Source of the DNA: Symbiodinium sp. CCMP2592
Lineage: Eukaryota > Sar > Dinophyceae > Suessiales > Symbiodiniaceae
Assembly (NCBI GenBank): GCA_905221615.1
Contig: CAJNDT010003301.1
Coordinates: 142,001-206,000 of the forward strand
Direction: 5' to 3'
Length of the DNA: 64,000 nucleotides
The notes below the pieces were generated by a model. The model was not told the origin of the DNA, ran no database searches, and saw only the letters and a program-made list of their open reading frames with translations. Shown here piece after piece: positions 6,716 through 63,807 of this stretch. The translations under genes and the position numbers were made by a program. Position 1 is the first letter of the stretch; each line of letters opens with the position of its first letter.

Positions 6716-7093
6716 TTTGGGCTTATCCATAGGCTTGGGTTCTCTGCCACAGCCAGGGCCTGATACTGATTTTTTTCGGATATGTCAGCGTCTATGGGTT
6801 CAGGGGTTCAGGGTTCACGTTCGGGCTTTGTGGACCTACCCATCGGCTTCATTAGAGGTCCTTTTTGGATTACCTTCTAGGGCCCTAAATATGAACCACA
6901 AAAAGGAACTACAACAGAGCCTAAAGGTATCCTGAGTCTTTTACCGATTCTTGCACCAGGAAATCAAGGGATGGAGAAATGAGTGGACAGAACATACAGG
7001 GTCTTTGGGGAACGTGGGTGGGTCGGTGGCTGGGTGAGGTGGGTGGGTGGGAAGTCCGCTTACTATCCATCTATACCTCAAGAGACAATCTCT

Positions 7094-8407: not shown

Positions 8408-8443
8408 TACCTAGACAACCCTGCGTAGTACCTTTATTTGGTT
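8408..8443 (+). repeat. Left terminal inverted repeat
   Basis: It starts TACCTAGACAACC and ends ATTTGGTT. It pairs without gaps with 24609-24644 (28/36). It is followed by the 18-bp palindrome at 8454-8471 and four AAGAAT hexamers between 8490 and 8535. Confidence 0.85.
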
Positions 8444-8649
8444 CATCGACAATAACCAGAAGATTCTGGTTCAGTGAGTTGAGAAAGATAAGAATGAATA
8501 AGAATATATTGAGAATAATAAGAATCCATAAGAAAAACTTGGAATGTCATAAGAAGGGTGGTAGGTTACGAAGCGTATTATGAAGTAAAGAAATGCTCCG
8601 AACATGTGTGGTTTTGTGGTGTTCTGGCGATGCTGCACAGCCCACCTGC

Positions 8650-10574
8650 TCAATATGCTTCCAAACATGCCGTCAACAACAGAAACTTTTTTCCACACCA
8701 GCGTTGCTTTGCATCCAAGATGTACTTCTGCGCAACACGCAGAGGCATCGACAAAGGATGCACTGATCGGCTAAGAATGCTCAGCCTTCCAACCGAATCC
8801 TCTGCCATAGCAGTGCTGAAGAGATACGGGTTGAAGATGTGACGAGCTCCACTTGATAGTTGCACGGCCACATCATACTCAACATGCATCAGATAATGGA
8901 ATTTCGGTGTTAAATTCCAGAAGATCTCCCTGTGTCGTCGTGCAAGATCGGCTGCTTGAATGTAGTTCCGAAAAAACGCACGCAAAAACTCACAGGCTCT
9001 GGTTGCTTGTGCCCGTGTCATGTATGTTCTGTCGGCCGTGTAGCACTCATGCAAGAAGTCGTTCATGCCTCAGCAACCACCATAACAGAAGACGTACTAC
9101 AGCTGACAGGTAAGTATAGGACTGCAAGAAAAATACCGATACACTTGCTTGCCAGGACACCTCTTGCTGCCGTAAAAGCATGCAGGAGAGTTTGGTTGAA
9201 GTTCCATGGACCAGATAAGTAGCATACTAACCATCGTAACATCAAGCGGCAGTCTGAAGCTTTCATAGTAGATTCAGGCATTTTGTTTGTGGATGCCCAC
9301 TGGAAGTTCTCACGAGTGAAATGCTTGATATGGGGAGTTTCTCCGAGAACCTCACGACAATACTTCTTGAAACACACGTAAGCCTGCTGCAATCTCACTG
9401 GCACACCTTGGCCAGAAGAAGAATCCGGTGCATGAAAATGCCCAAGGAAGATCAGGTAGCATAGCAAGGAAGAAACCAGCGTTCTTGCGATACCCAGCGA
9501 GCAAATATGAAATATATCCTTTTGCAAGAATTGCTCTTTAGCAGCCCCCGGAATTCGAATCATTGGAGATGGGGTTTCTGCAACCCATGGCCGTGATTTG
9601 TAAATTGTTTTGCGCCAACGTGCATCGTCATTGTAGTCCATGGCCGGACATAAACCGTCATCTGCAGAACACCATGGACACAGCAAGTTCGGACTGCACT
9701 GCCAATTCCGAAACAAATGAAAAGCTTTTGCTTGGGCTGGTAGATCCCCTTCTAAGCCAACACAAACAAACCGAAAGCAGTGCTCCCCAATGGTGATGCC
9801 GTTGTGATATGCAGCTGTCAGCTCCACTGTCAAGTGCTCTGTCAAGCTATCTAAGACAGCATTGCCAACCTCGTAGCCCATGTTGTGATGCTTATACTGC
9901 TCTTGCCCCATACAACTCCAGAAGAAGTAGCGAGACCATGAAGCAGCCTCACTCACCAACACAGGGCCCCATGTAATCTGCAGCACAGCAGCTTTTCTCA
10001 GGCCTGTGCCTTCGTCCATATGAATTTTGATCGGTATACAACAGCCACGATCAAGAGTATCATCCTTGTATATATCATGATCTGGAGCCACACGTCTAAA
10101 GAGCCTCCAAAATCGTCGTAGATGACCTTTGAAGTCATTCACCTTGTTCCACGAACATCCCATCAAAAGCTTCTCTGGGTAGGAATTGAATATTTCAGTT
10201 GCCAAGCTTGCAATAGGAATAACGACATGGTTCCCATATGACTCATCCTCCAGCAACACCTGCACAGTTGTAGTTGTCACATTTAAGCCCAGACCCAGCG
10301 ATGCAATGGCACCCGACAAATCTCGCTCCTTGTTGGATGCATTGCCACTCGGATGTGCTAGCTCTGCAACCGCTGCATAGCCACGAAGGCCGGGGGTCAT
10401 TGTTCTCAAACAAGCAGCTGCTAGCGATGTTGCTTGCTCAGCGTTACCATCCTTAGCTAATTCAGTCATGGAGCTCATCATAACTTGGATGAATCATATA
10501 CTTACGTGTTAAGCCTCGGGAACCAAGCATCAATATAGGAGCGGATGATCTTGTCGATGTTGTCTCTGATACCT
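8650..10574 (-). CDS. Transposase-like gene (Tnp2/Plavaka-like pattern), three visible exons
   Basis: The main exon is an uninterrupted 472-codon frame (10481-9063). It is preceded by a small exon, 10574-10506, coding GIRDNIDKIIRSYIDAWF and ending at a GTAAGT donor. A C-terminal exon (9066-8650, 138 codons, ends TAG/TAA region at 8650) follows. Visible motifs are IHMDEG (D156 of the 472-residue frame), VGLEGDLPA (D246) and CPWC (268-271), then KDIFHI (321-326). The downstream exon has TPKFHYLMH and MAEDSVGRL (E89). A D, then D-x-PA followed closely by CxxC, then a late acidic residue resembles DDE transposases of the Tnp2/Plavaka/CACTA group; this assignment is inference. I recognise close relatives as abundant in Symbiodinium-type genomes. 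The exon junction near 9066-9110 is uncertain. It is the gene nearest the left TIR, as expected for a transposase. Confidence 0.65.
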
Positions 10575-10773
10575 GCGGCAACGGTATTCACTGAATACGA
10601 TCGTTTTGTTTAGATTACAACTTGCGAGCATAGCAACATGAGTTCCTTTTGCCGTGCATGCGAAGTTCCTCACCTCGATCGGCATCCTAGTGAAAGCACA
10701 CGCACACACTTACAGTGTGCGAAGGCCGTAGCCAATTCGAAAAGATCCTTCGGATCGAGAGCAACAACCAAAC

Positions 10774-11268
10774 TCAGTCAGTAGGTTCCTGCGGCCCTGC
10801 CGCCTTCTTTGCCCGTGGCTTCGCTGGCGACTTCTTGAAGTGTGTCCTGGCGGTGATTGCGATTTTAGCTGTTTTAGATAAGTCTTGCTTGAAGGTGAAC
10901 AACAATAACATGCTGAACCCCTGAGCGGTAGACTTCAAAGCGCTGAGCTCGTTCGAGAATACTGTGCACCTGAAATAACAGGCTTACACACAAGAGCTGA
11001 GAACTCTATGACATTTGTCACAGAATCGAGCCTGTCACGGATCTTCGCAGTAACATCAGCGTAAAGATTCTTCGTCCTTGGTGCATAGGAGATCTTGTAC
11101 CATTGTTGCAAACAGACATAATTCCGTAATGCTAGGCTGTAGCTATGTGCGACTAAGTCTCTTGGCTTCCTTTGACAGGTCCAAGTCACAGATCTCCTTG
11201 TAGAGTGAGTTCAGCTCAGTCATCGTCTTCTCGCACGCGGCCAAATCGTCCCTGCTATCGAGCTATTG

Positions 11269-11304
<36 letters not shown>

Positions 11305-14300
11305 TTATTCAGCATATTGTAAGTATACATATATACCGTGCAATCACATATTGCATGCTAGCTTGCAGGTGAGGAGCCGGTGGGTTGTGCATGCCTCCTT
11401 TTCCAGCCTCTCCTTAGCCTCCTTAAGGAGGCCCCGCTTGTTCAGCAGTGTCTTCTTGTACTTTGAAACAAAAGTATCCACAGACTCACTGCCATCCAAT
11501 GGCGGCAGGCCGGAGCCTTTGGCTTTTTTTGAATTTCCATCTTGTCCCCCGCCTTTTCCATCTTTTCCATTCTGTTCATCCTCCTCATTGTCAGTGAGAT
11601 CCAGGCAGTCACCCAGCGACAGGTCAAAGTCACCGGTAAAGCAGCCTGCGGCATGAAGCAAACCCACATGCCATGTTTGAGTACTGGGCGTAGTAGTATA
11701 GTATTTCAAGCATCTCAAATATCATGCCCAACGACACCTGTCTCTTCCATGAGCTGCTCGAGCTCCTGCAGTCGCTCGGTACCTTGCCTGATGCTTTCAT
11801 GCAGCGTCTATTTATTATGCCTCCCACATTACTGATGCCTCCTGTGAAGTCCCAGACATGACTGCATACATATTAGTCATCACCAAGTTGCTCTACCGTC
11901 TCCGAAATGAGCACCAAAAATTTGCGGTCTCCGGTGTATATGCACTTCTTGTACATCTTTTTTGCAGTGCACAGTGCTACTGCTCCAGCAATCTTGCGCC
12001 TTAGCTATGATCAACAAGAGCATCGAAAGAACACAATAATGTATGAACTCAGCACATACCGTATGTTGCGATGGGAAGTCCAAGCATCTCCGACCATCCA
12101 CGATCCTTAAGCTCTTCCTCCGTCTGCCACTCGTACCCGGATTTCCCAGTTTTCCACGACTTTGACACTTGCTTCAGGCGAAACAGTGCTTCCAGGCGAC
12201 CCTGCCGAGGCTGCAGATCAAGGACACTCAGAGGGCGCATGTATAGTTCGGACAGTTGCATGTGTGACTTGCTGTGAACAACAATCATGGTTAGTCAGAG
12301 CAACATACAGACATGTACAAATGAACATAGCAAACAACCTTGTTGTCATCATAGGAGTTGTCCGGCTGATAGACCTTCTGAACAAACTCCTTCAAGAGCT
12401 TGTTCCGAGTGGAGCCACCTGCGAGGGGCACATATAGAATTCGAAATTAACATGGAGTATGTCATTTGCATCAATTCATGCACAACAAACCAAACATGCC
12501 TGCAGACCAACGATCCACAATGTCTTTGCTTGTCTTACACTTGCTCTTGTCTCGACCACACAGTCTGTAGAGGAAAGCCCATGCTTCTGGACACGTGGCA
12601 CTGTTGAACACTGCAATCCTCAAGTTGATTTTCGACACGAGCAGCATCATGCACTCTGAGTGTTGACAAATCAAGTGAAACAGCCAGCATTGCTATTGTC
12701 ATCGCACAACCAGAATATATTGCACCAAGTCACGTCGACTCACGGCGGCCTTTTGGATCTGCTGGTGCTTCTGGGGGATTGCTGTTGGCTTCTGGTGCGA
12801 GATTCCCGGTGGCTGCTGGTGCGGGATTCCTGCTGGCTTCTGGTGCGGGATTCGTGTCTACTCTTGGGGGATTGCTGTTGGCTTCTGGTCCGGGATTCCT
12901 TGTGGCTTCCGGCACAAGATTCCTGCTGGCTGCTGCGGGCTTGTCTGTAGAACCTGGAGGGGGGCTTTGAGCCGGCATGGTGGCCTTTGTGGTAGCTCCT
13001 GCGAGGCCCTTCGGCGCAGGAGGCATGCCTGATTTGGCAGCCTTCGGGGGTGCCGGGGGTGCAGGGATGGAGGCGGCGATTTCTTGCATCTTCTGCTCAA
13101 ACTCCTCCTGCGTCAGAGGCGGTGGGGGCACAGGCAACCCAGCAGCCCCAAATACGGTTGTTGCGCATTTGGGCATAGCCTTGGGAGGTGCAGCCCAGTC
13201 CTGATCATGGTTAAATTTCCGTTTATGGCCCGAGCTGGTCCACAGATTCCGTTCATCATCTTCCTTGTCCGCATCATAGTCTTGCTCAGCTGCATCCACC
13301 TGTATCTGCGAAGCCACACGTAAGAACTGCGAAGCAAGGTTCCGTTTCGGCAAGGCAGACGTAGCAGGGGTGGGACCATCTGTTTTGGCTTGGGGCGTTG
13401 TGGTTGCTTGTGCTGCTGCTGCTGCTGCTGCTGCTCTGCTTTGGCACTTCTTCAACAAAGCTTCCAGTTGCTGTGCCTTGCCGGCCCAATCAATATCCTG
13501 CTCCTCAGCCTGCCCATGGCCTGCCAGCTGGGTAGTTGTCTTTCTCAGCTCGAACTCTACTTTGGCTGGCGATGCCATTCTCACATCCTCGTCGACCTCC
13601 TCCATTCCTCGCTCATATGCTTGATCTGCTACATGTGTGTCCCAGGCAGCGTCACGGAATGGAGTTGCACGAGGGCTTGGTGCAACCGCTGGCATTGCGG
13701 TACATGGTGCTGTGTGCAGGGATGGTGCGATTGGCCATGCTGGGGCTGCTCGGGCTGCTTGTGCTGCTTGGTGCTGTTGCCCTTCCATATGCAAATACGC
13801 ATGTGCAAAGTCGGCTGTCATGGCCGTGCAAGCCAAGTCCTTGTTGAACTCAGGCCTTGATACTGGGCTTTGGCGAACGGTGGGGGTCGTTGCGGCAGGC
13901 TTTCGAAGTGCTACGGCTGGCGGTTCTTGGTCAATAAGTGTGTCCTGCCACTGTTGCTGCTGCTGCTGCTGCCAGTACATCTGTTCTTCTGTCTTTTGCT
14001 GTAGTTGTAGTTCCTGTACGTACATGGCTTCCTGGAGGGCTGCTCGCTGCTGTGTTCGCACTGCGGCTTCCTGTTGCAACACAGCAAGTTGCTCAGCGGC
14101 CTTTCTTTCAGCCTCCATGTAAGCTTCTTCTTGCTGCTGCTTTTGCATAGCAAGCTGCTGCATCTGCACATAGGCAGCTGCTTTCGTCTGCTCGGCCTCA
14201 TGCTGCAGTTTTCTGGCTTCTTGCTCAGCATGCTGCCTGTGCTGCTTCTGCAGTGTTGCCACTGCCGCAGCTTGCTGAGCAGCCACCTCACGTGCAGCAT

Positions 14301-15000
14301 CCAATGCCTGCTGCTGCTGCTGCTGGGCCCTTTGTTGCTCCTCAGAGTAAACGGTGCCGGCACGAGCCATCAGCTCCCTCTGTTCGTCACTCATGCTCTG
14401 CATATGGTGTAGCTTTGCTTCGTCCTTGATCTTGTGCATAGTAGCCCTGGAGACACCGCTCGGGGTGTCACGAAACTCTGCTTTGGTCCCAGGATTTGGG
14501 GGATCACCTTGTATCGAAAGCTGCTGTATGTCTGTATGGTGGTGACAAGCATGCTGTAGAAACAACATGAAACTAGCAATCAAGAAGCACACAAACAACA
14601 ACATGGCTTAAATGTTTGCAATCAAGAATCTCAACATGTCACCCTGCAGCTGCTTGGCCTGCAGGAGCTTCGCCACGAGCTGCCGGGACTGGGGCGTGTC
14701 GTTGAGTCCACTCACGAGCTTCTTGGACTCCGGAGAAAGTCCCCTGGTCATCCCCGATAATCCACGATTATCCTCCTCCATCGGCTCCTGCTTCACCCTT
14801 GCCTGGGATGTGCATTTTGACAGATAAAGGGAAAACGGTTGGAGAAAAGACAGTCATGTGTAGCCTAGGCACTGGCACAGGTTCCATGGGCTGAGGTTGA
14901 TGCTCTAAGGCAGTGATCCCTGCCTTCAAAGTCCCGCAGGACCAAGCCCTAGACATGCCCTGTGTGTGCGGGCTCGGGCACAAAATGATCTGCATGTTCC
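10774..15000 (-). CDS. Glutamine-rich coiled-coil protein gene of the transposon, about 12 exons
   Basis: Exon-like blocks, read 5' to 3' on the minus strand, are about 14947-14778 ([19 protein letters not shown]), 14803-14611 ([14 protein letters not shown]), 14545-12733 (long Q-rich exon), 12625-12510 ([18 protein letters not shown]), 12420-12339 ([18 protein letters not shown]), 12275-12060 ([16 protein letters not shown]), 11960-11882 ([16 protein letters not shown]), 11815-11715 ([18 protein letters not shown]), 11660-11350, 11262-11165 ([18 protein letters not shown]), about 11160-10990 and 10975-10774, ending ...AAGPQEPTD then TGA. Several gaps have GT...AG ends. Gene order and the [12 protein letters not shown] block match an accessory protein I recognise from dinoflagellate transposon-derived genes. 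Its role is unknown. It may be DNA-binding or structural. Confidence 0.6.
11350..11660 (-). CDS. Exon of the coiled-coil gene: acidic/lysine-rich segment
   Basis: It reads [20 protein letters not shown], then an acidic/glycine-lysine linker ([20 protein letters not shown]), then [20 protein letters not shown], an amphipathic helix. It sits between GT/AG-like boundaries and continues the same transcription unit. Confidence 0.5.
12733..14545 (-). CDS. Long exon: Q/A-rich coiled coil plus proline-rich tail
   Basis: This is the largest open block of the coiled-coil gene (about 600 codons). The N-terminal third is a long heptad-like run rich in Q, A and E ([19 protein letters not shown] onward), consistent with a coiled coil. 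The middle has acidic and [19 protein letters not shown] segments. The C-terminal 100 residues are proline-rich with imperfect repeats of the form NPAPEAS(R/N)NP (12760-12960). The shadow frames on the other strand are compositional artefacts. Poly-Ala ([10 protein letters not shown]) is encoded by a GCT/GCC triplet run near 13412-13440. Confidence 0.65.
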
Positions 15001-15189
15001 ACTCATGTACAATCAGTGCAAGCTTGCTTGCAAGCAACACCGTCAGCAACCTATGCCCAGCAATCAAGCAATCATGTTGATAACCAAGACGACAGCAGAA
15101 CAAGTGCACTCAGGACGGCGGGAGGGGCGCACCGTCGTCGAGATCCGCCCCGAGTCCTGGCCAAGAAGAAGGGAAGAAACAGTGAGGGA

Positions 15190-15724
15190 ATATATACACA
15201 TACAAGCATATATGCAAGCATATATATATATATACACTATATGTACTTATAAATATATGTACATTTATATCCAAATATACAGAAAGAAATATACATATAT
15301 ATATATATGCATATATATATACATATACATAGCTACATGTGTGTATATATATATATATGGATTATACGTATACATATACATATTTGTATAGATGTGCACA
15401 GGAGCTTGGAGTGTGTGTGATTTGAACCTTTGTATGAGTCTACTATCCTGCATGTGGGTGTATATGTGTATATATATAAGTGCATACATATATAATACAT
15501 AGACATATATATATATATATATACACCCACATTGACATACTCTCTCTCTATATATATACACAAAACAACCAATAGATTAGATGTAACCATATATGGTATT
15601 ATACAATATATGTACCCATGTGTATACATCTGCATGTATGTATATGCATATATATATATGTATACATGAGGGTGTGTGTATATATATATATGTATATATA
15701 CATACATATATATATATATATATG

Positions 15725-15777
<53 letters not shown>

Positions 15778-15800
15778 CATATATATATATATGCCGATGC
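15190..15800. repeat. AT/TATA microsatellite-rich spacer
   Basis: Runs of (AT)n and (TATACA)n broken by short unique patches fill the spacer between the two upstream genes of the transposon. Open frames rich in Y, I and V here follow the dinucleotide composition and are not genes. Confidence 0.9.
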
Positions 15801-15979
15801 CAGCCTCCACCTGCAGTCGCAAGATCTCCGCCGAGGGTATTTGTCGAGCCTGCCAGCAAAGCATTAAAAACCTCATGGCATAGGAGTGACAATAAAGGAC
15901 AAACAATAAAACAAATCAACTGCCAGCAAACAAAAAACACAAGCAACCACAAGGGATCCAACCCGGTGGAAAAAATAAA

Positions 15980-16390
15980 ACGACCCAAGGCGAGAAACCA
16001 CAGCAAATCTAACCCATTGGGAACAACCCCAAACCACCACAGGCGAGAAACCAGAAAAATCCAAACCAAAACCACCACAGGCGAGAAACCAAAAACAATC
16101 CAACCCGCTGGGAAGAAACCAAAACCACCACAGGCGAGAAACCAAAAACAATCAAACCCGCTGCGGAAAACCAAAACCACCACAGGCGAGAAACCAGAAA
16201 ATTTCTAACCCGCCGGGAAAACCAAAACCACCACAGGCGAGAAACCAGAAAATTTCTAACCCGCTGGGAAAAACCAAAACCACCACAGGCGAGAAACCAG
16301 AACATTTCTAAACCACTGGGAAAAAACCAAAACCACCACAGGCGAGAAACCAGAAAAAATCTAACCCGCTGGAGAAAAACCAAAACCATC
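15980..16390. repeat. Tandem minisatellite, ~52-bp unit, 7-8 copies
   Basis: The core CACCACAGGCGAGAAACC recurs at about 16035, 16072, 16127, 16178, 16230, 16280 and 16332, with a degenerate copy near 15985. Between cores lies AAAATTTCTAACCCGCTGGG or variants. Period is 50-55 bp except the first step (37 bp). It lies in the spacer between transposon genes. Confidence 0.9.
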
Positions 16391-16624
16391 ACACAAAAGC
16401 GAGACAGACCAAGCCAACCACAAGCAAAAAACCAACCACTAGCCGCACCGGTTGCGGACAGAGCGTAAATCCTAAGATCCCGGGCTGGTCCTAAGATCGC
16501 CCAGAGAATTGGTTTCCTGGCCTAGAGACTTGGTTTCCTGGCGCCGTCTGGCGCGGTGTTTTTGCAACAAGAAACTTGGACAAAGCGTTCCAGATATTCC
16601 CGTGCAAAAAAAGGTGTTTTTGTT

Positions 16625-16658
16625 AATGAATATATATATATATGTATATATGTATCTA

Positions 16659-16690
<32 letters not shown>

Positions 16691-17140
16691 CTTTTTGTAT
16701 GTACATTGTGTATCTGAATACATACTATCATAAGCGGTCCTGTCTGGTTATATATATATATCAATATCACTATAAAATTATATATATATATATATATATA
16801 TAATTATTATATATTATTATATATTATAATATATTATAATATATTATAATATATTATAATATATTATAATATATATATAGATATATATATTCTACCATGC
16901 ATAAAATAAGCAATATATACAACAAACAATATTTGACAAGCCACGACTTATTTCACAGTATTTAGAAGATGTATAACAACAATGCATCATATTATAACAC
17001 AAAACATGTAGTATGTATGTATGTATATATATATATATATACAGATGCGTATCGTACATAAAATTGTTTTATGAGCTATATCTATACATATATATATACA
17101 TATATATATATACATATATATATGTATGTATGTATGTATG
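16625..17140. repeat. AT microsatellites including an (ATATT/ATAATAT)n block
   Basis: (AT)n tracts occur at 16629-16690, 16750-16800 and 17010-17130. A 10-bp period (ATATTATAAT) array lies at about 16805-16870. No coding signal is seen from 15.2 to 17.6 kb. Confidence 0.9.
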
Positions 17141-17664
17141 TATATACGATATTGCACAATCGTCCAGGATTATGTGTTACTTACTGGTCCCGAATACTTA
17201 TCATATAGTCTGACCTATCTTTACTTTGTCGGGAAGCTGTGGACTAAGCATCAGTTCTGTGCTTGGTACATCGCCGATGATCATACAAAGAATGTTACAT
17301 ATTGTCATTTCTACTTCGTGTTGTAGTTTTACAAACAAGAAACTTGCTAAGGAGGTTTGCTATGGCATATAATTATCCCATTCAGTCCAACCTTCAAAAA
17401 TATGTATGTATGCTTATATATATATATATATATAATAGATGAGAGGCATGTTGCCTTTTTGCATGCACCCAAACAACCAAAACTCAGACACCCTCCCCCC
17501 TTTGTCGACAACTACAAACACAAAGCACAACACAACATCATGCTTGCTGCTCACGACCAAACAAGCAAGCTGCTGCTGCATACTTTTTGCTCAGCCAAAT
17601 GCATTACTCAGCATCAAAGCAAACAGTTCTGAATTAGGCGATTGCAAGAAGCCATTTGAGATTC

Positions 17665-18350
17665 TATACACGTAGGAGCTTCTTTATGTCATCAGGGATA
17701 TTCAATCCTTTACAGCCACGAAGGTAGGCATTTACATCGTCCATCTTTGCGTCCAGCCAAAGGTCAGTATCGATGAAGCTCCTCAGCATGTCGTCTCCAG
17801 TCATAGTTCCACTCGCCTTGAAGCACCATATATGCAGCAGACAGGACATCCGACATGCACAGTTCTGTTAAACAATACAACAGCATTTGGTCTGCAGATA
17901 AAGACTCCTGCGGATTGCGGAGACCGCGAAGACCATCCATTAGTCGTGGAATGAGGGCAGCAAAGTTGTATCCGAACCCGCAGGTATAGGACCTTATAGT
18001 GCAGGCCAAAGTTATGTGCAATATATATATATATATTGATGAGCACACACACCCACTTCCCGATACAGTTCAGGGCTGGGCTGGCTTTGCTTCAGGCGTT
18101 TGTTGCCTGTGTATCTCTGGCGTCCCCGACCATCCTCGTACCGATGAACTAGATGTTTCTTTTGCTTCTTCGTGCACTTCGCCTTCTCCTCATTTTGGAT
18201 GCTATAGGCAGAATATTTGCTCATAATGACGGCATTGCAAGCATGATCGATATTATGAATAAGGTCGAGCCGCTGACGAGTCCTCGCCCAAGTGCAAGGC
18301 AGAGATGAGGTGGCTATTGCTCCATAGACAAGTAGGCTTGCGTGTTTCTG
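17665..18350 (-). CDS. C-terminal exons of the methyltransferase-like gene
   Basis: The exon at 18350-18070 reads RTRQRLDLIHNIDHACNAV, then KKHLVHRYEDGRGRQRYTGN. The next, 18010-17815, reads ALIPRLMDGLRGLRNPQESL. A last block in another frame reads DMLRSFIDTDLWLDAKMDDV and stops. Composition is that of soluble helical protein, without membrane segments. I do not recognise a catalytic motif. Confidence 0.45.
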
Positions 18351-21300
18351 CACCATGCATGCTCATCCAAATTTTTTGCTTGAAAACCTGAAGTTGCAAT
18401 CTTGTAGGTCTGGCTCATGCACCGAAGTTATTTACCAAGTATGAAAATGATGCTTTGCATGCAGACAAACAACAATGAAAGTGATGCTTTGCATGCAGAC
18501 AAACAACATAAGCAACATGATCGCAGAAAAACTTCCATCTGGGTAAGTCCCCGAATCTAGCGCTGCCTGGTTGTTCAAGGACAAAGACGATGGAGAGAGC
18601 CATGCAAATGTAGCAGAGCAATATAGTCCTGGTCATGAACATGATTCGGGTGGGCCCAGGCTGTTTCCCCTAAACATTCAGATTCTTTAGTGCAGTAGAG
18701 CCGCCTATGCGCCAATAGATTTCCAGTGCGAACGAAATCCCGAGACTCATCTCCCAACGGGCAATACCAAGCACGCTTGCTCTGTGCGAGACACATGTCT
18801 GAAAAACTGGAGCAGACTGGTGCAAAGAAAGCCACACCACCGGGCTCCAATCGCAGCAAGGCTGCAATGGCCAGCCTCTAGAATCATACTCACACACAGC
18901 TACAGTAAACATGCGGTAGGCTGACACATGTGTATGTCAACAAGCGAAGCAACTTAGATTTGAGATACGGTGCCCCATCCCAGCCGGCGTTAGGAGGTCC
19001 ATGAACTTCCCTCCATAGGTGATATCCAAAGAGATCGATTTGTAGTTCAAGGCTCGAGAACAGAAAGTCAGATTCCCATCACCGGCGAAGAATTCCACCA
19101 CTCGCCACGCCTGCAAAGCAAACCCAAAAAACAACAAGCACATATATATGGTGTATATATAATATGTACTGACATATTCATCCATGTATAGGTGGTTTTA
19201 TTGAGTCATGAGTGAAGCATGTGTGCGTGTGAGAGGGATGTTTGTATTCTGTGCTTAATTGCATCCCCGGCACCTGGCTCAAATCAATATCATCGATGAA
19301 GTATAAGAAGATCACAGCCAGCACCAGCACCTCGGCACCGTGCCAATGAAGGTAAGCTCACCAGAATCTGAGCTATCGAGTATATATGCAGCTGCGAATC
19401 TCTCGGGAGTGCCGCTGCATGCATTCTGCAGAGGAGCCGATCGAATTTCCATGATGCAACCCTATTGAGGGAAATTCCCTCCATTTCATGCATGAGCCAC
19501 TTCGAATTTAGAAACACGAGAACAGAATCAACAACAAGCAAATCGCAAATGAGTTTAAACATACCAGACCGTACTATATATAGATCTTATGCATACAAGC
19601 CCTATGCATGCCAATAACGGTTGGACTGCCAAACATATATACACACTTTAAGCCGAACTTTGCTGCCAAACAGTTGCTCACAGAACTTGCTGTCACTCAA
19701 ATCAGACTGCTCACAGCTGTCCTGTCCCTCTCCCGGAAAGGTGGATGCCTCCGACGGTGCTGCTGCTGAGCTGCCGCCGTGCCAGGCCTGGCAACCAGCC
19801 ATGAATAGTTCAATAGAGGGTAGTAGACACCCAAACGGTGCAACAACATGTGCTCCTGAAACGAGCCATAAAACTAGCCGACATAGCTTGCAACATCTTC
19901 TGCATCATCCACGGGTCTCAGAAGCCGCTTGCGCCCTCGAGGCATCCCGGTCCTAGCCATATCAAAAGACTACACAGCACAATACATGCCACACATGTTG
20001 AATAAAGCCAGCCACCACGTCCTGCTGGCAACGACACCGCCAAAGAAGATGACCTCACGTCGTTTGTTGATCAAGCACTCATTGTATGGACAGCACTTAC
20101 AGACAACCTTGTATGCTTCATGGTGCGAATCAAGCAAGCAAGCTCAACATGCCCACAATACTTTTCGGCGCAGTCGGATCTCCACATGTTCGACGGGTTG
20201 CCCCAGCAGGCCCTACACTGACGTGCTACGTGGGATTTTCGATGCCACGGTCCTCCCCATAGGTCCCCAGCCATGTCTGAAACGAAGATGCAGATTCACT
20301 TATCAAGAGAATGTTGTGGATAAGATTCTCATAAAATATGCAATTAAATCATCATGGCTGGCACCTATTGACCCTGTGACCTCTATGCATCTACCCACTC
20401 ACATCAGCGTGCCCTGCAGCCCGTGTTGGGAACTTCATAGGAACTGTTCCCGAAAAAGCAGCCTGGTCAAGCATGCCTGTCTATTCACAAACAATCTATG
20501 CGTGCTCGTGCCTTTGTACTGTTTTGGAACATATGTTGGAATAGTCCAGGTTATGTTCAACACCAGCTGCTGCACTTCAAACCAGGCCAGCGGCCAACTC
20601 AGTTGCAAAATCCTTTTCAAGCTGCTTCAGGTGGACGTCGGCCTTGGCCCACAGCTGCTTCGGTGTCACCTTCTTGTTGTCTTGCAAGTGCTGCGCCTTG
20701 GCATTCGTTCATGTTGTGTGCTGCTGTTGTTTGCGTGTCTATTGTACGACAACAAACATCATGCTGCATCCGAGTGACAGCCCAGTTGCAAAGCCTAATC
20801 AGCACAGTGTAGGAGGGGTAGCTCATATTCAGGACCGAATGTCCCGTGCTCTTCTCCCGAACACCGGCTTTCTTTTGATTGCCAACCCAGTAGACCTCGA
20901 TGCGGTAGATCTCAAACTTCATGATCATCCTTAGACAATGGCCGTATATTGTAGGATTTCGTCAAGCATATATTCCCCATGTCTAAATGATTGTGGCTTC
21001 AGTGCTCAGGGTGATTGAGTTAAGAGTCTATAGGGATATTCTGTTTGTGACATCAACCATAGAAGGCTTGGTGAAGGTGTAGACCCCGAGCATGTGCGAG
21101 CCAAGGCAAGAGCAAACAAGCACAACAACCGACATGTACATGCTCCTATTCTGTATGCAGGCTAAAGTTCTTCTTGAGCTCCTGCTTCTCCTCCTGTGTG
21201 CACAACGGTTTGCCGACCTTCTTCCTCTTGGGATTGCCTTCCCCCTGCTCCTTGGTTTGATCCGGCTCCTCGTTATCCACAGGCTTCGCCTTCGACTTAG

Positions 21301-24066
21301 CTGCACTGGCTTTCGGCGTGGCTGCTTTGGCTTTTGCCTTTCCTTTCGGAGTGGCTTTGGCTTTTGCCTTTCCTTTCGGAGTGGCTTTAGCTTTTGCCTT
21401 TCCTTTGGGAGTGGCTTTGGCTTTTGCCTTTCCTTTGGGAGTGGCTTTGGCTTTTGCCTTTCCTTTGGGAGTGACTTTGGTGTTTTTTGTCGGCTCGGAC
21501 TTCTCCTGGTCATCTCCAGCCGGCTCCTCACCTTCATCATCTGACTCCGGATCCCCAGCTCTACCGGCCTGTCGGAGGACAGCAAGTTTCTCCTCCTCTT
21601 TTGGGGTGTTTGCTTCGACTTCATCATGCTTTACCTCCAATGATACGGATCGCGGAGGACTTGGAGGGTCTCCGAGCAAGGGTGGGGGACTTGGCGCAGG
21701 GGCAGCAACATGAGCCATCGGCGGCTTCACCTGAACGGGGACAAACGGCCCCAATTGCAAAGCTCCAGATGCTTCAGAGGCCCTGCTCGCTTCCTGGCGG
21801 GCGAGCCCGGCCGCTTTGAGATCGCCGGACCTCTCAGCTTCAGAAGCCCTCACCATTGCAGCCTCCTCAGCTGCTTTATGCATCCAAAAGTCCAGGTGCT
21901 CAGGAGCGAACAGGAATTCCTGACGATTTGCTGCCTCAGCCAAAACATCTCGCATCACATCGGGAGCTTCAGCATCTGCTTCCGACTCTTCGGAAAGCTC
22001 TGGAATCTCCGCATCGTAGTCCACGTCCTGGGCCAGCTGAACCTCTTCTGGAGCATCGGGCCCTGTCACCTCGATGGGCGAAATACATACCTGCGATGCC
22101 AAAGCTGCAGCAGGCGAACTCACCTGAATCATGTCTCGGTAAGGGGATACGGTTTTCCCGGTCTTCCGGGATCCAGCTGCTTTGTCTGGGGAGGCTACCC
22201 TGGCCTTCTTTTTTTCACGACCTCCCTGCTCGCTCTCACTAGAGCCATGCACTTCACCGAGTTTTAGTGTCTTGGCATGTAGCAGCTCGTACTCGTCCCT
22301 CGGTTGTTCGCACGTCATGTTTGATTTGTATGCACAGCACATCAAGCCAGCATATTATGATAATGCCGAAAAGGATCGGATCCATCTTAGGAGACTCCTC
22401 AGCCTGCTCATGTGAATCGTTGGACTTGCTAAGAAGTAAAAATATTGTTTACGAAGCGGTGCCTGCAGAGCTTCAGCATCCTTTGCATTCAGCTGCTGCA
22501 ACACCCAGTCCACAGAGCCCTAGCAAGAGAAGGTAGAGGTGAATCGCTTGTGCTATTGATTGACGACACTGCAAATCACGAACATGTCTGAGGTACACAT
22601 TGGTGGCCTGAACATCCTCATCGGTCATCTTCTGCGTTTCGACGTCATCAACGGGTCTTGGCTATACATTTGCAAGCAAGCATGCAAGCAGCACGAACAT
22701 CAACAGCAACAGTACTGACACATACCATAATATTAATTTGCAGTCAAGTTGCTTGCTGCGTTGCTGCTGGAGCTTCATCTTGATGTGTTGTTTGATGGCA
22801 TCCACTGAGCCTGCAAAGAACTTACATCAACAACACATGCATTCAACCTCATCTGATAACTCATTAGACAGTAGAAGAAGTACCTAGCCTGCGTAGGCAT
22901 TGCCTTGCCATCCTTTGCCAAAGACTTCGGACCGGCACGGTGTAGCAACAATGTTATTTCCTGGACCCTTGCTCGACGACGAAGGCTCTGGAAGCGGAAC
23001 ATCATCCTCGAGCTCGGTCTCCGTGATCGAGGGGGAACTAGCCACAACCAAAGCTTCAGCCAAGGCATCCTCCTTGAGTGGAGCCGCCTCCTCCGGCTGA
23101 TGCAGACTGTCTTTCTCAGCCTTGGCACGTTTGCGCCCCGCCTTCTCATAAATAAATCGTGGAATGCGGAGTTCTTCGTTCGTGTGCTCACGGTATAGCA
23201 CCTTCAAACAACTCAAGCATCACAATGCATGCCCATGAGTTTGTTAGTGAGCTGGCTGAGCAACAACTCTGTATTGTGTGTATCTGAGACAACAACCGAC
23301 AATCAAGCGCAAGCATGCCGGGTCAAATTGCTGCCGAGGTGCTGTGAGCTCGTTGACCTCAGGATCTCGTTGACTCTTCGACCGATCTGCCAGTCCTGGG
23401 CCGCAGGTTGAAAAAGACACACCGTGACTGTCTTTATGATTGCAACAATCATGTCCAGCTAAGTGTCGCCGGTGGGCACCAGCCAAAGTTTTCAGTCCAT
23501 GTGCATCGGAGTTGATCCTTGCCTCACTCAAAGGAGCCTGAGCAGCCAAGCCATCATGAATTTTTTTTTGCTGGTTGCACTGCATAGTTATTGCAGATTA
23601 GTCGCTTCCCACTTGTTCGCCACTCTCTGTAGCACAGGCTCGAAAAAAGGCACACGTATCATGCTCGGATTGTCGGCCGTCACGACCACAACATGTCGAA
23701 GAACGATCTCAGATGCAGTTAAACAAACTTGCTATGGAACCGAGCTATCAATACCGTTCTTGCAAGAAAGATATATCAAAGCCAGGCAGCCCGATTCAAC
23801 TTCATTGCCTTTGCGGTGGCACGCTTATCCTCGTCACCCTTCTTGTTGTAAGGCCACATAAGGAACCGTTTCAGGTTCCCCGTGCGAGTTTTAAGCTCCT
23901 CGTCTTTGCATAACGCCTGCGGCACGAAATCTGCGAAACTCTACATTCGGTGGTGTTCATGTCAACATGCAGACATGTATATGTCTCCAACCTCGTACAA
24001 CATATCCGACAATCGCTGGATCAGTTGGAGGTCGACCGGGGCATTATTTCCACGAGCAGGCGGCAT
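17665..24066 (-). CDS. Methyltransferase-like gene of the transposon, many exons
   Basis: The start is proposed at ATG 24066-24064 (MPPARGNNAPVDLQLIQRLS). Exon-like blocks follow at 23945-23767 (NLKRFLMWPYNKKGDEDKRA), 23716-23600 (NPSMIRVPFFEPVLQRVAN), 23545-23480 and 23460-23300 (TVTVCLFQPAAQDWQIGRR), 23205-22884, 22812-22735 (IKQHIKMKLQQQRSKQLD, GTATG donor), 22665-22575 (PVDDVETQKMTDEDVQAT), about 22520-22440, 22330-21146, 20930-20580, about 20260-20040, 19960-19870 (MPRGRKRLLRPVDDAED), 19800-19640, 19110-18965, 18860-18670, 18350-18070 and 18010-17665, ending IPDDIKKLLRV then TAG. The combination of FAGDGN and APVCSSF blocks suggests an SAM-dependent nucleic-acid methyltransferase. Boundaries are approximate, and it could be two genes. 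A frame change near 17815 implies a further small intron or a frameshift. Confidence 0.55.
18670..19110 (-). CDS. Methyltransferase-like domain (FAGDGN and APVCSSF motifs)
   Basis: There are two exons. The first reads VVEFFAGDGNLTFCSR, then LDITYGGKFMDLLTPAGM. The second reads LRLEPGGVAFFAPVCSSFSD followed by SRDFVRTGNLLA. FAGxGxxT resembles motif I (SAM-binding glycine loop) of C5-cytosine methyltransferases, and the acidic LDI follows at the expected spacing for the residue binding SAM ribose. PGG...APVCSSF sits where the catalytic PCQ loop (motif IV) would be, with a cysteine present, but without the P-C-Q triplet. That makes function uncertain. Between the exons is a ~110-bp gap ending in AG. 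Confidence 0.5.
20040..20930 (-). CDS. Cysteine-rich and helical exons of the methyltransferase-like gene
   Basis: 20930-20770 codes MIMKFEIYRIEVYWVGNQKK. 20720-20580 codes KKVTPKQLWAKADVHLKQLE, a helical segment. 20270-20130 codes CRACWGNPSNMWRSDCAEKY, and 20110-20040 codes CKCCPYNECLINKRREVIFF. The paired CxxC-type cysteines suggest a small zinc-binding region. This is inference from spacing only. Confidence 0.4.
21146..22345 (-). CDS. Large exon with TPKGKAKAKA repeats
   Basis: An open frame of 399 codons. The N-terminal part is polar and acidic (DVDYDAEIPELSEESEADAE). The middle is A/E-rich helical (HKAAEEAAMVRASEAERSGD). Residues ~285-350 are a tandem decapeptide, TPKGKAKAKA, five times with the first four nearly identical, encoded by a 30-bp DNA repeat (21310-21480). 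The tail is basic (NPKRKKVGKP), a likely nuclear localisation signal. Lys/Ala/Pro decapeptides resemble histone H1 C-terminal tails and dinoflagellate basic nuclear proteins. A DNA-compaction or DNA-tethering role is inference. Confidence 0.6.
   Translation of the reverse strand: MMCCAYKSNMTCEQPRDEYELLHAKTLKLGEVHGSSESEQGGREKKKARVASPDKAAGSRKTGKTVSPYRDMIQVSSPAAALASQVCISPIEVTGPDAPEEVQLAQDVDYDAEIPELSEESEADAEAPDVMRDVLAEAANRQEFLFAPEHLDFWMHKAAEEAAMVRASEAERSGDLKAAGLARQEASRASEASGALQLGPFVPVQVKPPMAHVAAPAPSPPPLLGDPPSPPRSVSLEVKHDEVEANTPKEEEKLAVLRQAGRAGDPESDDEGEEPAGDDQEKSEPTKNTKVTPKGKAKAKATPKGKAKAKATPKGKAKAKATPKGKAKAKATPKGKAKAKAATPKASAAKSKAKPVDNEEPDQTKEQGEGNPKRKKVGKPLCTQEEKQELKKNFSLHTE
22884..23205 (-). 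CDS. Exon: basic then acidic/serine-rich linker
   Basis: It reads VLYREHTNEELRIPRFIYEK, then AGRKRAKAEKD (possible nuclear signal), then SPSITETELEDDVPLPEPSS. It continues the reading direction of neighbouring exons. It has no recognised domain. Confidence 0.45.
23767..24066 (-). CDS. First two exons of the methyltransferase-like gene
   Basis: Exon 1 (24066 to about 23975) begins with ATG and codes MPPARGNNAPVDLQLIQRLS then DMLYEVG. A GT lies in GAGGTTGGAG. Exon 2 (about 23945-23767) codes FVPQALCKDEELKTRTGNL, then KRFLMWPYNKKGDEDKRATA. This block lies about 580 bp inside the right TIR, so a promoter probably lies between 24066 and 24609. I see no TATA-type signal that can be told apart from the AAGAAT-rich DNA there. 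Confidence 0.5.
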
Positions 24067-24469
24067 GGCTATACAGAGGCAAGGCCAAAAAAGCAAGTCT
24101 ATAAACATGCACCGAACAGTTTTCCGAACGTCTGTATGGAAAGTGTATGTGTTCTATTGCTACTGATTTTGATCGCCCCTGCTGTCGGCTGATACAAATG
24201 CAAACACCAGCTTGAAAAGATGCTGCTGCATAAAGACAAGCTTGCAGCAGCATGAAATGCATCTCATACCGGCAAACGTTGCTCGACCCATTCTCAGCCT
24301 CCGGCAGTGGGTTGGAATCGAATCCACGACCATTGCATGCATGTCCATGTTGTTGTTGCTGCTGCGGTTGTTGCTGAATTTGTTACTGAGCTCGTCTTGT
24401 TGTCACACACATGCCCAACATGCACACAACAAGTCCAGCATATTTATTGATATATTCAAGACTACTTGA

Positions 24470-24644
24470 GAAGAATCAAAGAAGGCACAAGAATATATTC
24501 CCCATTTTAAGAATTCTCAGAACTATATAAGAATAGTGAGAATATGAAATCTTACCACAAGAACTAGGTAAACCAGAAAGTATTGGTTTAAACCAAGAAG
24601 AACTACTCAACCAGAAAAAGGAACGCCAAAAGGTTGTCTAGGTA
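24470..24644. repeat. Right terminal and subterminal repeats of the transposon
   Basis: The TIR is 24609-24644 (ends GGTTGTCTAGGTA). Inside lie AACCAGAAAGTATTGGTT (24571-24588) and several AAGAAT motifs. The motif AAGAATATATT occurs near both ends in the same orientation (about 8502 and 24490), so subterminal repeats are direct while the TIRs are inverted. Confidence 0.8.
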
Positions 24645-25431: not shown

Positions 25432-25583
25432 TACGGTTGATGATATAAATCCTGCATTACCTTAAGGCCCCTAAACTATGCGGTTGATGATATAAATCCT
25501 GCATTACCCATAACAAGGAATATACCATAATTCCCATAGTTTATGGGCCTTAAGGTAATGCAGGATTTATATCATCAACCGTA
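25432..25583. repeat. Family F element plus an extra inverted arm
   Basis: A complete copy spans 25481-25583 (CGGTTGATGATATAAATCCT ... AGGATTTATATCATCAACCG). Directly before it, 25432-25480 repeats TACGGTTGATGATATAAATC through AAGGCCCCTAAACTATG, which is the reverse complement of the full copy's right arm. The locus thus has three arms instead of two. Confidence 0.85.
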
Positions 25584-34509: not shown

Positions 34510-34913
34510 AAAGGATTTCTCACGATGATGTCGGCTTTGAGGTCGGGACCACGTGACGTATGCAGCCCTCCGTCCTCTCGAAGGGAAGATGCAAGAGCTC
34601 CACGTTGATACCTGGCTGTCTTTGGGGGTTTCCTAAACCCCCAACAGTAGGTAAAATAATGGCCCAACACCTATAAAAGACATAATTTTGGGGTCCAGGT
34701 TAAGGTTTTTCAGGGTTTAGGGTTGGGGTCCCTAATCCAGCAAATCCGCAAAGTCTTGACTGATACCCGATGTTTAGCGCTAGGGCCTTTAGGGTGTAAG
34801 CTTCCCTTTTCAAGGACTTAAATAAGGAACTTCTTTGAAGGGATTAGGGATTAGGGCGTATAGAGTCTGATTAGGGAGAAAAGAGTTTAGGGGTTCGGGG
34901 TTTATGGTTTACT

Positions 34914-35018
34914 TATAGTCTCCATTGTAGTTCCTTTTTTGGTTAACCAAAGTCTCTATTATAGGATCCTAACCATAAAGCTGGTTAACCAAGAAAAGGA
35001 AATACAATGGAGACTATA
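34914..35018. repeat. Family G MITE-like element, long arms
   Basis: TATAGTCTCCATTGTAGTTC at the left and GGAAATACAATGGAGACTAT at the right. The inner arms GGTTAACCAA also pair. The centre is CTATTATAGGATCC. Confidence 0.85.
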
Positions 35019-35438
35019 GGTAGGGTCTATCATTCCGCAGGGGCTTGAAAGTCTTTGCGCCATGTGCACCTAGTCCCTATAGGCAGGCAGTTTGTGTCCT
35101 GGGCTCACAGCCGCATAATGTAGAAGACGGAATAATTGCCTATGAAGGTCCTAAACCAGGACTTAGGTTAGGGTTGAGGGTTGCGAGCCTTGGTAATTAG
35201 AATAGGATTCCTTTAAAGGGTTCTTAAGAGGGGTTCTTTACCGGATCTATGGTATACAGGGTCGAGGGATGAACTTTCAAGGAAGGCGCAGTGCCAACTT
35301 CAACCGAGAGCCGCTGTCCTTTTTGTGGGGTTTCAGGTTCAGTTTCCTGAAGCACGAGACTGCCTGCGTTTGAGCTGGAACAAGGCAGATGTCCACCTGT
35401 TGGGGTTTAGGGCTGAAGCTGAGGGTTTAAAGGGAACT

Positions 35439-40545: not shown

Positions 40546-41255
<710 letters not shown>

Positions 41256-53600: not shown

Positions 53601-53705
53601 TACGGTTGACGATATAAATCCTGCATGACCCATAATAAGGAAAATACCGTAATTCCCATAGTCTGGGGTCATTAAGGTAATGCAGGATTTATATCATCAA
53701 CCGTA
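53601..53705. repeat. Family F element
   Basis: TACGGTTGACGATATAAATC ... GATTTATATCATCAACCGTA, nearly perfect arms. Confidence 0.87.
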
Positions 53706-63060: not shown

Positions 63061-63161
63061 AAACCCTCGCCCTTCCCAATAAGCAAGCCACGGAGAAGGT
63101 CCACAGAGCGCCAGCAGACCCAAAAAGCTTCGTATCGGATCAAGACGTGACTACCTATTGT

Positions 63162-63306
63162 CACCATTGTAGTTCCTTTTTGGGGGTACCTTACAGGATC
63201 CTGACCACCTATAGTCACGATTCTAGTTTTTTTTGTTTGGGCTACTTTATAGGGTCCTGAATACAAAACTTGTCAAACCAAGAAAAGGAACTGCAATGGA
63301 GACTCT
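63162..63306. repeat. Family G element with a duplicated left arm
   Basis: Two successive left arms (CCATTGTAGTTCCTTTTTGG..GGATCCTGA, then CGATTCTAGTTTTTTTTGTT..GGTCCTGA), each introduced by CCTAT(T/A)GTCAC, precede one right arm (AAAAGGAACTGCAATGGAGA). Confidence 0.82.
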
Positions 63307-63807
63307 GGGCAAGTTCTGAATGGGCAACAGGCAGAAAGGATCCCGAAATCAGTCAAGCAGACCCCAAACACTTCCGAAGCTGCACAAAATGCCACGGTGA
63401 CGATCTTAAACATTCGGATTTGTGATATCTAATCAGACAATGTATAATTACTACCTCCGTGGCCGTCTAGCCCGGGTCAGGTTTAAGGTTTAGGGTTTGG
63501 TGAACCTGCGGTTTTTCAAAATGCGGGAAATTTTAAACAGAACGTTTTGTACTACCTCCGCGGCCGTGGCAGAGTACAACAAGAGCCTGAATAATGAGAC
63601 TGAGGCGTCGAAGCTTACATACTATACATAAGCTTAGTGTAGGGTGTAGGGTGTAGGGTGAACCCTCTTCACTAATGATTCAAGCTCCGCTTTTAGGGTT
63701 TCAGGCTGACAAACCATAGGATCGTGCATCAAAGCATTAGGCCCTGAAAAGATATAGTTGGGGTTTAGGATTTAGGGTTCAGGGTTTAGGGGGCACGGTT
63801 ATGAGTT

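Follow-up and report, generated by a model that had tools for sequence, protein, structure and literature searches.

Positions 8408-24644 of a 64,000-nucleotide stretch of the genome of Symbiodinium sp. CCMP2592 raise the question of whether a 16-kb interval framed by terminal inverted repeats (TIRs) is a single mobile element and, if so, of what kind. The stretch, called the window throughout, corresponds to C3301:142001-206000 in an assembly of 1.098 Gb and 5383 contigs (GCA_905221615.1). A first-pass annotation had proposed one autonomous or recently autonomous DNA transposon with three genes on one strand. Judged from sequence, the interval, here called E1, is very probably one structurally complete element that belongs to a large family of giant (16–20 kb) TIR DNA transposons.

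Results

E1 measures 16,237 bp including a TA on each side (16,233 bp between them), and we presume these TAs, at 8408-8409 and 24643-24644, to be the two copies of a target duplication. Its first bases are TACCTAGACAACC and its last are GGTTGTCTAGGTA. The TIR at the transposase side (8410-8443, plus strand) has 3 mismatches to the family end motif as searched, while the right, far end (24609-24642, minus strand) is an exact match to this 35-base motif. The first-pass annotation had described imperfect 36-bp repeats here, and recomputation returned the same values: 28 of 36 positions, TA included, are identical between 8408-8443 and the reverse complement of 24609-24644, and the outer 13 are perfect (TA followed by CCTAGACAACC). 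When every reverse-complement 36-mer of the window was scored, the true partner came first (28). The four runners-up scored 24, 23, 23, and 23; those at 34987, 63276, and 6894 are themselves ends of the same motif family. Given this best-scoring partner and the five matches to the family motif in the window, against none in 100 shuffles, the pairing of the E1 ends is not attributable to chance.

The main transposase frame of E1 (9063-10493, 476 codons) matched 104 segments of the genome including itself, with the closest listed relative at 46% identity; this first look scored the best 89 of 913 candidates. Many of the 30 transposase loci that were fetched belong to groups of near-identical copies, which were aligned group by group (L003/4, L005/6/7, L008/12, L010/11/14, L015-19, L020-24, L026/27/30, and L028/29/31), keeping alignments of >80 bp for ends or >300 bp for transposase loci. 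The copies lose similarity past the gene, at the end motif or a few bases from it, and their flanks are unrelated. For the six compared pairs without an indel near the end, identity was 0.997–1.0 over the last 300 bp inside and 0.18–0.32 over the next 100 bp outside. Indels are present in the four remaining pairs compared (0.27–0.82 inside, ungapped), whose boundary rests on BLAST extents. Copies of ends alone (L035/L048 and L034/L037/L042) part likewise at the motif. Past the motif, L008 and L012 have some microsatellite sequence in common; in L005/L007 and in L021/L023 the similarity continues into the flanks, so neither of these two pairs represents separate insertions. In the families that could be delimited, the transposase gene runs toward the end, and its stop lies 0.06–0.6 kb from it. 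The end of E1's clade and of the near-identical groups is bipartite, TA followed by CCTRGA-N12-GTTCCTTTTTNTGGTT or a variant, and the TA directly precedes it in 24 of the 27 listed copies.

The first-pass annotation had suggested looking for other loci with both ends at similar spacing, and four further inward pairs of ends were found around such a gene, 16.9–20.0 kb apart compared with 16.2 kb in E1. Two were fetched whole: E2 (C5129:118152-135035, 16.9 kb) and E3 (C1779:1636978-1656323, 19.3 kb). The pairs at C4907:539428-557884 (18.5 kb) and C624:385217-405207 (20.0 kb) were read at their ends only, and each has a match to the methyltransferase-like gene described below inside it. A TA stands on both sides of E1, E2, and E3; a 2-bp TA could also belong to the end itself. 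In a tblastx comparison from which microsatellite-coded peptides were left out, the matches between E1 and E3 were collinear, starting within the first kilobase and reaching the end, and most had 30–70% amino acid identity. E2 is a distant relative, in which the methyltransferase-like and transposase genes follow the same order as in E1 at 26–42% identity; direct DNA alignment of E1 and E2 gave one 54-bp match (E = 5e-4) and was uninformative. The inward pairs, the collinearity of E3, and the gene order of E2 bear out the idea of a single element. Its autonomy is plausible, considering the open frames and the purifying selection among relatives.

The transposase-like gene lies where the first-pass annotation had put it, next to one end, and is encoded on the minus strand by a main exon (9063-10493; 476 codons between stops, and presumably identical with the frame earlier given as 472 residues) and a last exon (8650-9069), which a predicted splice junction would join. 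The main exon contains HMDEG (10008-10022), GLEGD (9744-9758), CPWC (9669-9680), and KDIFHICSLG (9492-9521); the last exon contains PKFHYLMH (8884-8907) and MAEDSVG (8788-8808). When the 672-codon frame of E2 was used as the query (best 66 of 1162 candidates scored), 59 of the 66 main rows were frames of at least 600 codons, three of them with one internal stop. A tree of 31 transposases separated 10 rows, including E1 (clade I), from 21 rows, including E2 (clade II), with support of 100/100. For five of seven pairs of relatives, the ratio of nonsynonymous to synonymous substitution rates (dN/dS) came to 0.25, 0.22, 0.15, 0.07, and 0.18, the 0.07 pair being unreliable at a dS of 3.4; the remaining two pairs were saturated. 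G-D and CxxC are invariant in all 31 rows, HxD[EK]G is kept at ≥90%, and DxxH followed by G is invariant or nearly so. KxHxxxH followed by E[DG]xxG was found by pattern in 20 of the 31 rows and on the following frame in six more (E1, L003, L008, L010, L013, and L014). These conserved motifs suggest a DDE catalytic role.

Ends of this type were also sought beside clade-II genes. Where ~0.65–0.7 kb had been fetched past the stop, a TACCTRGAC-like end (variants included) was seen in 9 of 20 genes (L057, L058, L060, L061, L069, L070, L071, L073, and L075), with TACCTAGACAACCCGCCCCCG, TACCTAGACCACCCGCCCCCG, and TACCTRGACCCC as examples within 0.65 kb of the gene. The two clades thus share TACCTRGAC at their ends and differ in the subterminal block. 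At L061 (C5063), a TACCTAGAGTCTTC-type end lies 276 bp past the transposase frame, ~0.1 kb outside the presumed end of the element there; it is a neighbouring insertion of a relative. At C2668:9475-9509, C4046:490825-490859, and C2001:789227-789261, copies of one clade-II family, the motif faces away from the gene at the same spacing, ~0.9 kb upstream of the transposase frame, which would reflect either a relative inserted in an ancestor or a different layout.

Across the 1.1-Gb assembly, the 35-base end motif had 12,076 matches at ≤3 mismatches, compared with one for a reversed-pattern control. The exact 13-base TIR was rejected as a sign of other copies (20 genome matches against 32 for its reversed control), and we treat inward pairing and the 35-base motif, not the 13-mer alone, as significant. 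Many of the 100 genome matches listed are TACCTAGAGTCTCCATTGTAGTTCCTTTTTTTGGT or close to it, and are probably ends of short high-copy elements.

A second gene recurs inside these elements. In E1 it occupies about 17667-19119 on the minus strand, in several exons, and encodes EFFAG, PVCSSF, LEQPGS, and KPTCLWSNS. E1 and E3 have E[FL]FAG, PVCSSF, EQPGS, and KPTxLWSNS, of which E2 shows weaker versions; E[FL]FAG, CS[ST]F, E[QN]PG, and KxxxLWSxS are kept in all three, and the proteins are 52% identical between E1 and E3 and 36% between E1 and E2. We take the first three motifs to resemble the S-adenosylmethionine-binding (FAGxG-like), PC-type catalytic, and ENV/ENP-type motifs of C5-cytosine methyltransferases. 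The label "methyltransferase-like" rests on this likeness, since no library searched recognises the protein. Counting one row per locus among those listed, with second segments of one gene dropped, 22 of 27 loci with the exon-type gene (including one with a single frame, plus its copy) have a transposase 7.1–14.5 kb downstream on the same strand. In position and motifs, this gene recurs as part of the set that these elements carry. In one of the more distant cases, C4557:296367-350921, a distance of 53 kb separates the transposase from the methyltransferase-like exon on the same strand, perhaps in an element enlarged by nested insertions.

The minus-strand placement of the genes agreed with the first-pass annotation, whereas its count of three was too low: the conserved coding blocks of E1 form at least four groups. 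Beyond the two genes above, the core of gene C (11007-12419, minus strand; E1-oriented 12226-13638) consists of short exons kept with E3 at 32–59% amino acid identity and is assigned to no family. A Q/A-rich, coiled-coil-like open frame of 625 codons (12730-14607, minus strand) is perhaps the first part of gene C. It had no Pfam match, and a K/E/A-rich frame stands at the corresponding place in E2 (L053:1009-2217). Between gene C and the methyltransferase-like gene is an AT-rich spacer or intron (14608-17666) with microsatellites and a 53-bp minisatellite (16063-16393; 6.3 copies, 90% matches), and the corresponding spacer of E3 also has microsatellites. Gene A includes a 402-codon acidic and Lys-repeat frame (21146-22354, minus strand), in which a 30-bp tandem repeat (21324-21480; 5.2 copies, 96%) codes for a Lys/Ala/Pro repeat; its analogue, at the corresponding position of E2, is the Lys/Ala/Pro-repeat frame L052:4412-5032. 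Two more gene A exons on the minus strand are shared with E3, at 23322-23396 (68% over 25 residues; E1-oriented 1249-1323) and 23836-23904 (43% over 23 residues; E1-oriented 741-809). Weak library matches (Mustang, Prok-JAB, DUF6764 on the Lys-repeat frame, T2SS_GspM, two PHROGs of unknown function, and a GCN4 chimera) were attributed to chance or to sequence composition. None of the frames scanned against Pfam was recognised as a reverse transcriptase.

Outside E1, the window has a 113-bp short element (34910-35022) with the family motif at both ends (5 mismatches on the left, 3 on the right), which is a probable non-autonomous relative. A 160-bp short element (63152-63311) has the motif at both ends with 4 and 3 mismatches, and a single end of the same motif family lies at 6894-6929 (minus strand, 2 mismatches). 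Because these two short elements and the third end share the motif, the surroundings, rich in miniature inverted-repeat transposable elements (MITEs), probably consist in part of E1's own non-autonomous relatives. TTTAGGG-like repeats are also present in the window, as are three adjacent 6-base repeat arrays (CTGCCG, CAACAG, and ACTACT; 40576-41254, ~680 bp) and an inverted repeat pair, 25432-25467 onward and 53670-53705, that is 35/36 identical at best over a distance of 28 kb. A search for the spliced-leader sequence at ≤4 mismatches found none in the window.

Discussion

Several results weigh against reading E1 as one of a family of elements with this gene set. In the assembly, the left 301 bp of E1 had no match but their own. 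The search thus yielded no near-identical sister of this end, and the evidence for copies at unrelated sites with TIR boundaries comes from relatives of E1. The first-pass annotation had proposed a check for empty sites, and in the same assembly this returned E1's own flanks and no empty site. Three of the 27 listed copies (L008, L022, and L025) have no TA directly before the end, and the other 11 of the 20 clade-II genes showed no clear TACCTRGAC-like end in their ~0.65–0.7 kb of flank. KxHxxxH was not found by pattern in five of the 31 transposase rows (L056, L069, L070, L071, and L073), and searches of Pfam and PDB sequences with the transposase frames gave no meaningful match. The methyltransferase-like protein matched nothing in Pfam, PHROGs, NCBIfam, or PDB sequences, PHROGs and NCBIfam having been searched with this protein only. 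Finally, the remaining exon-type loci comprise two of the 27 with a transposase at 28 and 53 kb and three with none listed, and the 27 include many loci that duplicate each other.

The order D, D, CxxC, HxxxH, E suggests a transposase of the EnSpm/Transib/RAG1 (CMCT) clade type. EnSpm/CACTA, Mirage, Chapaev, Transib, and RAG1 have the same order of catalytic and zinc-binding motifs (PMC12730594), and the E1 family differs from them in termini, gene content, and the lack of a Pfam or PDB sequence match. A further comparison is with ESTA and Plavaka, fungal CMCT lineages. Their transposases contain two D along with C(2)C, H(3-4)H, and E, their duplications are TA (ESTA) or 2–3 bp (Plavaka), and in some families an extra gene encodes a DNA-modifying enzyme, a TET/JBP dioxygenase (PMC12730594); in the E1 family the extra gene is the methyltransferase-like one. 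Unlike these lineages, the E1 family has CCTRG..CYAGG termini and no Pfam match; its elements are 16–20 kb long. A DDE transposon outside CMCT, or a stand-alone new superfamily in which the motif order arose by convergence, is a serious possibility that we nonetheless rate clearly below even: most CMCT lineages end in 5'-CA..TG-3' (PMC12730594), and no Pfam family matches the transposase, but five CMCT-type features stand in the right order, CxxC stands a short way past the second D and HxxxH a short way ahead of E, and TA duplications occur in ESTA as well.

Transposase_21, Plavaka, and KDZ had been proposed as Pfam profiles for the transposase frame, and the Pfam search gave no match. The search of this genome with PF02992 (Transposase_21) gave 0 matches, but control genomes were silent too. 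KDZ elements (Kyakuja, Dileera, Zisupton) are DNA transposons linked to TET/JBP genes, and Zisupton has TIRs, as E1 does; its duplications are 8 bp (PMC12730594), as opposed to TA in the E1 family. The frame had no match in a Pfam copy presumed to contain a KDZ transposase domain, and neither this domain nor the 8-bp duplication links E1 to KDZ. DDE-type TIR elements that duplicate TA are already known; what sets this family apart, possibly as a new superfamily, is its size, its termini, its methyltransferase-like partner, and the absence of a Pfam match. We found no description of it in the literature searched, which included passages of PMC12730594, PMC11453091, PMC5890265, and PMC8045281 and lay outside subscription journals, Repbase Reports, and preprints.

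Alternatively, some elements may have captured the methyltransferase-like gene from the host, or it may be degenerate and encode no enzyme; in either case it would have no share in the function of the mobile unit. Another, mostly single-frame class of such genes (31–36% identity, mostly 385-codon frames) is abundant away from these transposases: none of its 118 listed loci (50 + 68) has a transposase ≤20 kb downstream, and one of the 68 has one ≤20 kb upstream. No curated family matches the gene either, and Pfam was likewise silent for a single-frame 215-codon relative (45% identical to the protein of E1) and a 385-codon relative (33%). We consider this explanation unlikely, since its placement with respect to the transposase does not change between E1 and E3 (clade I) on the one hand and E2 (clade II) on the other, and its motifs are kept at 36–52% identity among the three. 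The other class itself, with very many similar copies that are mostly single frames, is probably part of another mobile element; one member, L077:2027-3184 (C4112:1702306-1702818 region), has GTPCSSF, IEQPCSS, and KPLQLWSN.

That E1 is a host-gene segment between two unrelated MITEs, its TIR pair coincidental or composite, is highly improbable and is contradicted by E2 and E3: same-motif ends are very common in the genome and present in the window, and the left end of E1 matches only itself, but a like gene set lies inside paired ends at other loci, the delimited families have the transposase near the end and running toward it with copies that part at the motif, and the two ends of E1 share CCTAGACAACC, unlike the frequent TACCTAGAGTCTCC end among the motif matches listed.

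For E1 as a giant TIR transposon, the ends, boundaries, pairing, gene order, multiplicity, and selection can be read from the sequences compared, and a likely mechanism can be sketched on them. The transposase, encoded beside one end and read toward it, would bind the bipartite end (in E1's clade, TA and CCTRGA with the subterminal GTTCCTTTTTNTGGTT), cut with a DDE-type RNase-H-like active site, and insert the element at TA, duplicating it. Since 14 kb separate the far end from the transposase gene, it must be the terminal sequences on which recognition depends. As a guess from its motifs, the methyltransferase-like protein might methylate the element's DNA or an intermediate, so as to escape silencing or protect the intermediate. 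A similar methylation role has been suggested for the DNA methyltransferases (DNMTs) of retrotransposons in Symbiodinium (PMC5890265). Gene A, with its Lys repeat, and the coiled-coil-like gene C could, as a guess, supply DNA-binding helpers, and short elements with the same ends, probably thousands of them, would likely be mobilised in trans.

SymbioLINE-Dnmt and SymbioDIRS-Dnmt3 are likewise dinoflagellate mobile elements with a cytosine-methyltransferase gene; they are retrotransposons with recognised DNMT domains (PMC5890265), whereas the E1 family consists of TIR elements whose methyltransferase-like protein no library searched recognises. Taken as a whole, a new superfamily of giant TIR transposons in this dinoflagellate lineage, with two deep transposase clades and a core, divergent DNA methyltransferase that marks its own DNA, and serving as the source of thousands of MITEs, is a proposal we put forward tentatively and would not yet bet on.

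Conclusions

The host group of these elements has been reported to have unusual DNA methylation. The end motif, the source elements, and their gene set may together account for ~12,000 element ends in one genome. If the extra gene encodes a working methyltransferase, the family would be a further case of mobile DNA taking up a DNA-modifying enzyme, with precedents in the retrotransposon DNMTs of dinoflagellates (PMC5890265) and in TET/JBP of fungal DNA transposons (PMC12730594).

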